Shown here piece after piece: positions 49,590 through 51,927 of a stretch of DNA of 64,000 nucleotides (the first letter of the stretch is position 1; each line of letters starts with the position of its first letter). The stretch spans positions 62,001 to 126,000 of the forward strand of contig JANQYI010000009.1 of the NCBI GenBank assembly GCA_030728985.1, written 5' to 3'. The notes beneath the pieces were generated by a model. That model ran no database searches. It was not told where the DNA came from and saw only the letters and a program-made list of their open reading frames with translations. The position numbers were made by a program, and so were the translations under genes. The DNA comes from Burkholderiaceae bacterium. Its GTDB lineage: Bacteria; Pseudomonadota; Gammaproteobacteria; Burkholderiales; Burkholderiaceae_B.

Positions 49590-49952
49590 GGGGCCGATCC
49601 GGATTCGACGTGGGTCGCGAAACAGTGCAGGGCATGCCGAGCACCAGTTCGCTCGTAAATCCACTGGAAACACTATAAACGCCAACGACGAGCGTTTCGC
49701 TCTGGCCGCTTAAGCGGTGAGCCGCTGCACTGATTTGTCTTTGGGTCAGGTGGAGAAATCCACAGCAGCGTCATTTACAAAGAATCGGGGTTTGCCGGGT
49801 CACTCGTCAAATTCTTAAATCCAAGTGAATCGCCAAGGTCCGGCCTGTCGGTTGGCTAAGTCCAAGGTTAAACAAAAAGTAAATCGACTACGCATGTAGA
49901 ACTGCCTGCAGAGGGCTCGCGGACGGGGGTTCAATTCCCCCCGGCTCCACCA
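49590..49952 (+). ncRNA. ssrA: Transfer-messenger RNA (tmRNA)
   Basis: About 363-base RNA that rescues stalled ribosomes by trans-translation with SmpB. The 5' GGGGCCG pairs with 3' CGGCTCC, followed by encoded ACCA; the TPsiC arm reads GGGGGTTCAATTCCCCC. The tag reading frame (GCC AAC GAC GAG ... TAA, about 49681-49713) encodes ANDERFALAA, the tag typical of Betaproteobacteria. It is one-piece, unpermuted. A terminator follows at once. The 3' end of ssrA is a frequent integration site, and an accessory patch lies right after it here. Confidence 0.97.
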
Positions 49953-49958
49953 AACCGC
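49947..49958 (+). repeat. Direct repeat copy 1 (CCACCAAACCGC), at ssrA 3' end
   Basis: Twelve bases overlapping the last six bases of tmRNA. An identical copy is at 50571-50582. The pair brackets the decayed toxin-antitoxin remnant, as target-site or att-like repeats would. Confidence 0.5.
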
Positions 49959-49960
49959 AC

Positions 49961-49991
49961 AAGACCATCCTTTCGAGGATGGTCTTTTTTT
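49961..49991 (+). terminator. Intrinsic terminator of ssrA
   Basis: Stem AGACCATCCT / AGGATGGTCT with a TTCG tetraloop, followed by seven T. It begins nine bases after the tmRNA CCA end. Confidence 0.92.
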
Positions 49992-50000
49992 GTCTACAGA

Positions 50001-50261
50001 TTAGCTGGAGCAGTTGGCACCAAATCTGTCGTGGCACAATAAAGTCGGGGCGGGACCAGAACCTTGGTCGCGACAAATATGAGAAACCGATGGATTTTTG
50101 TGCACGGTTTTGAAAAAAATGACCGCGCAAATATTTCAGATGGTGAACTGGAAGCGTTTAAAGATATTGCAGCAGAACTCTTGGGGAGGACTGTTAAACA
50201 ACTGGACGAAGCCTTGAATGACGGATCCTTAACGGAGATATGCAATGACCAAAAAAATCTA
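50001..50261 (+). pseudogene. Remnant of a RelE-family (PF06296-like) toxin gene
   Basis: The frame from 50043 (SRGGTRTLVATNMRNRWIFVHGFEKNDRANI as a whole pattern, then DGELEAFKDIAAELLG and KQLDEALNDGSLTEICND) matches the C-terminal two thirds of RelE-type toxins usually followed by an HTH antitoxin. About 40-50 N-terminal residues are missing; in the same frame a TAA at 50040-50042 interrupts a degenerate LAGAVGTKSVVAQ upstream. The normal stop is also lost: with one A fewer in the A7 run at 50251-50257 the frame would end QKI-stop. Both defects mean no functional toxin is expected. Confidence 0.7.
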
Positions 50262-50605
50262 AGGCCAAGAGCCTCATTTTTGAAGCTGTTCATGAAACTG
50301 CAAGCGATCTTCATCGCCTCGGCTTCATTGATAAACGAAAAATGCGCAAATTTGATCTGCTTTGTCTGGATCCCATTCCGGCGTACGATAGTGAAAAAAT
50401 TCGAGCGCTGAGGCTCCACCTTAAACTAAGCCAAGCTGTTTTGGCTTCGGTATTGAATACAAGCCTGTCAACAGTGCGCAAGTGGGAAGTAGGCGATAAG
50501 CATCCAAGCGGTCCCTCGCTAAAGTTGCTTAACCTGCTAGATCGCAAAGGCCTAGAGGCTGTAATTTCCACCACCAAACCGCGAAGGGGTTGGGCTTACG
50601 GGTAG
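50245..50605 (+). pseudogene. Frameshifted HTH antitoxin gene (RelB/HigA-like partner)
   Basis: From the ATG at 50245 the zero frame stops after five codons (MTKKI), but removing one A from the A7 run gives a continuous 119-residue antitoxin: KAKSLIFEAVHETASDLHRLGF and MRKFDLLCLD, then an XRE-type helix-turn-helix (LKLSQAVLASVLNTSLSTVRKWEVG). The ATG overlaps the toxin end in the usual toxin-first arrangement. A shorter product of 87 residues from the ATG at 50342 would keep the HTH. So it is a pseudogene unless slippage on A7 restores it. Confidence 0.7.
50571..50582 (+). repeat. Direct repeat copy 2 (CCACCAAACCGC)
   Basis: Identical to 49947-49958 and lying in the 3' end of the antitoxin frame. 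The distance between copies is 624 bases. Confidence 0.5.
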
Positions 50606-50775: not shown

Positions 50776-51927
50776 ATGGCTCGAGACACTGGGACCTATG
50801 TCATTACCACGACGCTGAGTGAGTCAGTCAGGGCGTTCGTACCCCACCCCTTAACTCCAACGGAACCAGATTTGGCTTCTGGAGTTTATGCTGAGCTCAG
50901 TCGACAAGCCGAATTGGCGCTCGCGCGCCTTGCTGGCGTATCTGGTTTGGTTCCGTCAGTGGACTGGCTTCTGTACAGCGCCATCCGCAAGGAAGCGTTA
51001 TTAACGTCACAGATCGAGGGCACGCAAGCCACCCTTACCGATTTGTTCGATAAAGAGGCTGGATTCAAAGTTAGCAACACCGACGATGTTGAGGAAGTCA
51101 CCAATTACTTGCGAGCCTTCCGCTTAGTCCAAAGTCAATTACGCGATGATCAAGGACTACCCATCAGCGTACGATTGCTGTGTGACGCCCACCGTCTGCT
51201 ACTTGATGGGGTCAGAGGCGCAGGCAAACAGCCTGGAGAGTTGCGTCGCTCACAAAACTGGATCGGCGGCACGCGGCCTGGCAATGCTGCTTTCGTGCCC
51301 CCACCTCCGGAGCACGTGCCTGTCTTGCTAGCCAACATGGAGCATTTCATTCATGACGACGAGGCGACGATGTTGCCGCCTATGGTCAAGATCGCGCTTA
51401 TCCATGCTCAGTTTGAGACCATCCATCCTTTTCTGGACGGCAATGGGCGAATTGGGCGCCTACTGATCGCAGCTTTGTTCGAGCACTGGGGATTGCTAGC
51501 CGAGCCGCTGATGTACCTCAGTGGTTATCTCAAGAAACACCAAGCCGAATACTACCGACGCCTCTCCGCCATCCGTACCGAGGGTGACTGGGAATCCTGG
51601 GTGATGTTCTTTCTAGAGGGCGTGTGCGTGGCGGCTGGGGATGCAGAGCGCAACATCATTGAAGTGGCCAGTCTGGTGACGGCTGACCGCAAGCGCCTGC
51701 TTCAGTCACCTAAAGCAGGTCCAGCGAGTTACCGACTCTTTGAAATGCTTCCGATGATGCCGCGCTTCACGATCGAGCGAGTGCGCCAACAACTCGACAC
51801 CACGTTCCCGACAGCAACAGCAGCGGTCAAAATGCTTGAAGATCTGGGTATCGTGACAGAAATGACCGGGCAGAAAAAGAATAGAAGCTACAGTTACCAG
51901 AACTATGTGGAGCTGCTATCACCCTGA
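50776..51927 (+). CDS. Fic family protein (predicted AMP-transferase) with own inhibitory helix
   Basis: 383-residue Fic-domain enzyme predicted to transfer AMP to hydroxyl side chains of target proteins. The catalytic motif HPFLDGNGRIGR starts at His217 and is complete (His, Asp, Gly-Asn-Gly-Arg, Arg). An inhibitory helix motif (S/T)xxxE(G/N) is present as T77-S-Q-I-E81-G82, N-terminal to the Fic core, so this is a class II, self-inhibited Fic like SoFic. The C-terminal 90 residues form a winged-helix domain (FTIERVRQQLDTTFPTATAAVKMLEDLGIV). It follows the decayed toxin-antitoxin remnant and looks acquired. Targets unknown. Confidence 0.93.
   Translation: MARDTGTYVITTTLSESVRAFVPHPLTPTEPDLASGVYAELSRQAELALARLAGVSGLVPSVDWLLYSAIRKEALLTSQIEGTQATLTDLFDKEAGFKVSNTDDVEEVTNYLRAFRLVQSQLRDDQGLPISVRLLCDAHRLLLDGVRGAGKQPGELRRSQNWIGGTRPGNAAFVPPPPEHVPVLLANMEHFIHDDEATMLPPMVKIALIHAQFETIHPFLDGNGRIGRLLIAALFEHWGLLAEPLMYLSGYLKKHQAEYYRRLSAIRTEGDWESWVMFFLEGVCVAAGDAERNIIEVASLVTADRKRLLQSPKAGPASYRLFEMLPMMPRFTIERVRQQLDTTFPTATAAVKMLEDLGIVTEMTGQKKNRSYSYQNYVELLSP

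Follow-up and report, generated by a model that had tools for sequence, protein, structure and literature searches.

HigBA pairs with a PF06296 RelE toxin occur in Betaproteobacteria (e.g., L117 and L122) and have the same toxin-first order as the locus described here, with the antitoxin start lying 17 nt upstream of where the toxin stop codon ends. The nearest solved relatives by sequence are the HigB-2/HigA-2 structures of Vibrio cholerae (5ja8, 5jaa, and others). Both relationships are distant: the toxin of the same-genus genome G005 matched the HigB-2 structures over residues 10 to 86 (E = 0.0018 to 0.003), and our antitoxin frame matched the HigA-2 structures over residues 49 to 99 (E = 0.00027). 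Antitoxins without a toxin partner are described in the available part of an Escherichia coli survey of orphan antitoxins (PMC10790755). The tmRNA gene ssrA is a frequent site of genomic islands, according to the accessible text of one report (PMC11915505), and in such islands the tmRNA 3' end is repeated beyond the inserted DNA, as far as the available portions of two reports go (PMC11915505, PMC3146451). No paper on the present locus was among the matches listed for orphan or degenerate toxin-antitoxin (TA) pairs.

The locus lies in a 64,000-nucleotide stretch, the whole of which we refer to as the window. Its HTH antitoxin is 97% identical to that of L117 and 94% identical to that of L122; unlike those pairs, the window has a toxin short of ~56 codons and of its likely promoter, together with an antitoxin whose start is in the wrong frame and whose end has changed. 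Unlike the E. coli orphans, as they appear in the available part of that survey (PMC10790755), the window antitoxin is also broken. Compared with the ssrA islands in the accessible text of the reports (PMC11915505, PMC3146451), only ~0.6 kb separates the repeats in the window. Like such islands, G005 has more cargo at the same place. The features of the locus are as follows:

49590-49952, plus strand: ssrA, the tmRNA gene and island anchor, with tag ANDERFALAA (ARAGORN; Rfam RF00023, 209.5 bits)
49947-49958, plus strand: 12-nt repeat CCACCAAACCGC, first copy, made up of the tmRNA 3' end plus the 6 bases that follow
49961-49986, plus strand: intrinsic-terminator-like hairpin downstream of the tmRNA, with a very similar hairpin in the same place in some relatives within the genus (G016, G026, and G031 among them)
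50006-50036, plus strand: 31-bp stretch across the end of an AEP-TOTE/helicase gene, with one mismatch to relatives; the gene is whole ahead of the same pair in G005 and G011
50037-50041, plus strand: deletion junction, 5 nt compared with 206 nt in G005 (~200 bp missing)
50043-50246, plus strand: what remains of the toxin, its C-terminal half (positions 56 to 120 of 120 in the PF06296 RelE profile)
50245-50262, plus strand: antitoxin start, positioned as in relatives and here reading MTKKI-stop
50249-50605, plus strand: open antitoxin frame (HTH_3, HigA-like), with no start codon before 50342
50251-50257, plus strand: run of seven A, read from the letters, one base above the matching stretch in close relatives
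50342-50344, plus strand: first in-frame ATG of the antitoxin frame, ahead of the HTH, which would give 87 residues
50571-50582, plus strand: second copy of CCACCAAACCGC, just past the place of the relatives' antitoxin stop, an att-like island end
50776-51927, plus strand: open gene for a Fic protein (best PADLOC model SoFic), a neighbor of the island and not part of the pair

An earlier, sequence-only reading had proposed that seven A instead of six stop the antitoxin after MTKKI and let the toxin frame read through, so that a single base would explain both defects. Its description of the site agrees with what we found: ATG 50245 is followed by ACC and exactly seven A, the frame ends after MTKKI with TAA at 50260-50262 (the span originally given, 50245-50261, is one base short of this end), and the toxin frame continues through the run to a stop at 50411. 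The frame of ATG 50245, the toxin frame, and the HTH antitoxin frame all differ at this site. Three same-genus genomes—G005, G011, and G020—carry a whole pair with 93 to 94% DNA identity to the window over ~520 bp, and have six bases (ACAAAA) between ACC and TCT at the site of the seven A. In all three, a 127-aa toxin ends in ...DDHKI-stop and the antitoxin opens at an ATG placed 17 nt ahead of where the toxin stop ends, which is the intact arrangement anticipated for the shorter base count. G023 has six A at the site, and L122 is the same as the window for ~36 bases from the ATG on, minus one A. Since all five are shorter here, the window is one base longer than its closest relatives, and the extra A, judged against them, accounts for the antitoxin being out of frame. 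Seven A per se is not rare in the window, which holds 19 A/T runs of at least 7; 12 of the 19 fall inside ORFs under longest-first picking, two of these (50113 and 50251) in a spurious antisense ORF.

The antitoxin frame matched PF01381 HTH_3 at 35.1 bits (cut-off, 23) over residues 51 to 94, wholly downstream of ATG 50342. No ATG, GTG, or TTG was found in this frame before 50342, and an in-frame N-terminal start is kept in 80 of 80 named-genome homologs. The 3' end of the gene differs as well: in G005, G011, G020, and G023, GTAATTT is followed by AA or AG to form the stop, and in the window it is followed by CCACCACCAAACCGC, making the frame 12 residues longer than in these four close relatives. 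By this comparison, the altered 3' end is a second lesion besides the extra A.

As an explanation of the toxin defect, the single base was rejected: the antitoxin half of the proposal holds, relatives with six bases being open, but the 5' half of the toxin and its likely promoter are separately gone. The remnant matched PF06296 at 65.4 bits and only from profile position 56 on, short of a whole-domain match, and is directly preceded by an in-frame TAA (50040-50042). The G005 toxin matched positions 1 to 120 of 120, and the remnant corresponds to residues 57 to 126 of that 127-aa protein. Missing relative to G005 are a likely -35 box (TTGACA), half of a palindrome, the start codon, and ~56 of 127 codons. 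By eye, the whole toxin in G005, G011, and G020 lies downstream of TTGACA...CACAAT with the palindrome TGCCACTTAGTGGCA; from that promoter, GGCACAAT remains in the window at 50033-50040 (also by eye), and TTGACA is absent. A scan for sigma-70-like sites found TTGACA-18-CACAAT ahead of the intact toxin of L117 (the contig of G011) and no sigma-70-like promoter between 49500 and 50900 in the window, although the latter absence is weak evidence on its own because shuffled sequence averages 1.5 such sites. With the likely -35 box, the start codon, and ~56 codons gone, the frame at the toxin end therefore no longer decides the fate of this gene. A window-only change of K to M at 50079 creates an ATG within the remnant.

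The repeat CCACCAAACCGC is exact over 12 nt; from base composition, the 824 nt that follow the tmRNA would be expected to hold 2.4e-5 copies. It stands both at the tmRNA end and just past the place where the antitoxin of relatives stops, so that the pair is flanked by tmRNA 3' ends on both sides, as in islands that use ssrA. The G005 contig starts with the last 122 nt of a tmRNA. Next comes a frame of 838 codons that encodes AEP-TOTE primase and helicase domains, and the whole toxin of G005 lies ~3 kb from the tmRNA, behind the helicase gene. A frame like that of G005 lies ahead of the pair in G011; the AEP-TOTE/helicase identity comes from Pfam on the G005 copy only. In G004, the tmRNA is followed by CCACCATACCGCGAAGGG, and ~160 bp on, a stretch is identical at 44 of 50 positions to the window just behind the second repeat. 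Copies of the tmRNA end similar to those in the window were recovered in G001 and on the G011 and G020 contigs. No integrase was recognized by eye among the ORFs in the ~0.6 kb between the two repeats, and the repeat that marks the island is no longer than 12 nt. The most likely reading of the window is a collapsed form of a fuller, G005-like ssrA island.

Some observations concern the island's surroundings. The AEP-TOTE primase/helicase gene between the tmRNA and the pair in G005 (L094:1933-4446, minus strand) is possibly defense cargo of the ssrA island. A HigBA-type pair also lies behind a tmRNA match on a contig titled Gammaproteobacteria (L136:1-1166), where the tmRNA match ends at 347 and the pair follows downstream, with the antitoxin at 855; the HigBA family may be a more widespread passenger of ssrA islands. 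A 95% identical copy of the Fic gene was found in G001, between two copies resembling the tmRNA 3' end, and the TA-bearing contig of G020 has a fragment of the same family (82%).

The search for intact homologs that the sequence-only reading had called for yielded an open antitoxin, with an in-frame start and reaching residue 104 or the match end, in 80 of 80 named-genome loci; these are the best 80 of 242 relatives, and the count therefore holds for near relatives only. Openness was scored as an aligned stretch without a stop from residue 8 or earlier to residue 100 or later, with any ATG, GTG, or TTG in the open frame at or before the start of the stretch, or up to 3 codons inside it, accepted as a start; without the residue-104 limit, the count is 65 of 80, with alignments extending beyond the natural stop. 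The loci are partly dependent, as L148 and L150 share an assembly, likewise L157 and L179, and the contigs of G023, G011, G005, and G020 (L116, L117, L119, and L120, respectively) are all among the 80. The toxin beside the same 80 antitoxins was full-length and open at 56 loci, broken or partial at 14, not found at 8, and not assessable at 2. The rule applied was a rough one, in which a single open match had to begin by residue 8 and reach at least residue 115; L195, open from residue 9, therefore scored as partial, and a toxin that was not found may be a diverged one. Open antitoxins accompanied by an incomplete toxin are common among these homologs, and G023 is one case, with its own, different toxin truncation and an open antitoxin.

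We consider it very probable, from these comparisons, that the locus is an ordinary decayed HigB/HigA-type type II TA pair that survives within an eroded genomic island at ssrA. In pairs of this type, the toxin gene comes first and the antitoxin gene overlaps its end. Comparison with relatives shows that the toxin has lost its likely promoter and ~56 codons, that a single additional A in a short run of A puts the antitoxin start out of frame, and that tmRNA 3'-end sequence now stands in place of the antitoxin stop. Loss of an antitoxin before loss of its toxin should be harmful. We infer that the toxin died first and the antitoxin later: loss of the toxin would have freed the antitoxin from selection, and an extra A, gained when replication slipped in the ordinary way on a run of six A, would then have been retained. 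A working form of either protein would not be expected to be produced. The locus is ordinary pseudogene decay, with no new mechanism.

Codon changes on the window branch, counted on a topology entered by hand following a computed tree, were 6 synonymous and 1 nonsynonymous in the antitoxin, compared with 3 and 6 in the toxin remnant (Fisher P = 0.060); the remnant also tended to differ from all other branches (87 and 37; Fisher P = 0.058). An intact toxin, L124, has similar codon changes (4 and 7), and the contrast is only suggestive as a sign of decay. The antitoxin frame seems to have stayed under constraint along most of the window branch, as would be the case if the frameshift is very recent, if expression has continued, or if the assembly is in error. 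Considered together, the codon changes are suggestive of an earlier toxin death with a recent antitoxin break, and also fit an assembly error in the run. Under such an error, the genome would truly have six A, the antitoxin would be an open orphan beside a beheaded toxin, and the seventh A would stem from assembly or sequencing. Homopolymers are a common site of such errors, the source assembly is 86.66% complete in 44 contigs, and both the 6-to-1 excess of synonymous change and the open antitoxin in all of the best 80 of 242 relatives are consistent with a gene that is still whole. Against this, picked ORFs of at least 110 codons cover 92% of the window and contain 57 of its 71 A/T runs of at least 6, so broken genes are not general in the window, with ORF picking favoring open frames and one picked ORF at this locus being spurious. 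If the reads were short, seven A is also short for an error. We regard an assembly or sequencing error as unlikely. No second copy of the pair was found in the same genome at E ≤ 0.001, in an assembly of 86.66% completeness.

Three further alternatives would leave the antitoxin, or part of it, in use. The sequence-only reading had suggested transcriptional slippage on the A run; if RNA polymerase, or else the ribosome, slipped there, some of the antitoxin made would be full length. The frequency of transcript indels within A/T runs does rise with run length in the available part of a genome-wide survey, in which 15 (21%) transcription deletions in Buchnera and 3 (<1%) in E. coli began in uninterrupted homopolymers (PMC5574713), and slippage is named for Buchnera and Blochmannia in the accessible text of a review (PMC5009743). 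However, rescue here would take the loss of one A from the message, or the gain of two, and one-base insertions dominate A/T-run transcription errors in both E. coli and Buchnera, making loss the rarer direction in these published data; in the survey, none of the transcription errors restored a frame (PMC5574713). Because loss of an A is the rarer direction and the likely promoter of the pair is gone, slippage rescue is disfavored, and we give it hardly any chance. A real rescue of this kind would have been noteworthy, but the evidence is against it. A conserved slippery site was rejected as well. No frame break accompanies the site in the antitoxins of G005, G011, G020, and G023, which have six bases at this position and are among the 80 homologs, all with an open antitoxin; L139 has ATGACC, seven A, and ATC with its antitoxin in frame, and L134 has eight A, also in frame. 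Since L139 carries the identical seven A in frame, the run is no conserved shift signal.

A start at ATG 50342 would instead give an HTH-only protein, acting as a DNA-binding orphan regulator. The HTH lies wholly behind this ATG, in an 87-codon ORF, but by eye no clear ribosome-binding site precedes 50342, and the lack of a promoter-like site between 49500 and 50900 also speaks against it, if weakly (shuffles average 1.5). The disordered, neutralizing region of HigA2 is N-terminal. By analogy with V. cholerae HigA2, the product of an internal start would keep the HTH and drop the N-terminal, toxin-binding part; it is a disordered region of HigA2 that neutralizes HigB2, according to the available text of that study (PMC11006873). 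We view such a regulator as highly improbable. It is likewise very improbable that slippage or the internal ATG still allows low-level expression of the antitoxin, and that the protein has been retained since toxin loss for an anti-addiction or regulatory role; if true, this would explain the mostly synonymous codon changes on the window branch.

Alone, the locus means little, being one more worn-out TA pair. The countable pattern lies in the HigBA family, where 22 of 78 assessable relatives had no full-length open toxin beside an open antitoxin, the antitoxin being open in 80 of 80 (best 80 of 242). Besides these, 29 further loci from genus and family searches were compared; the family search gave matches in 97 of 268 genomes, and the best loci were examined. 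Two of the 29 stood out: L013, in which the nearest start is 8 codons before the expected place, and L087 (G103), which is frame-broken. The latter is an independent locus of the same family with both toxin and antitoxin frame-broken, and the window and G103 are loci with both genes broken. Four loci—L119, L122, L130, and L188—are titled Bordetella parapertussis, and their isolate names are patterned like an environmental series in the same list; the species label of these four looks doubtful.
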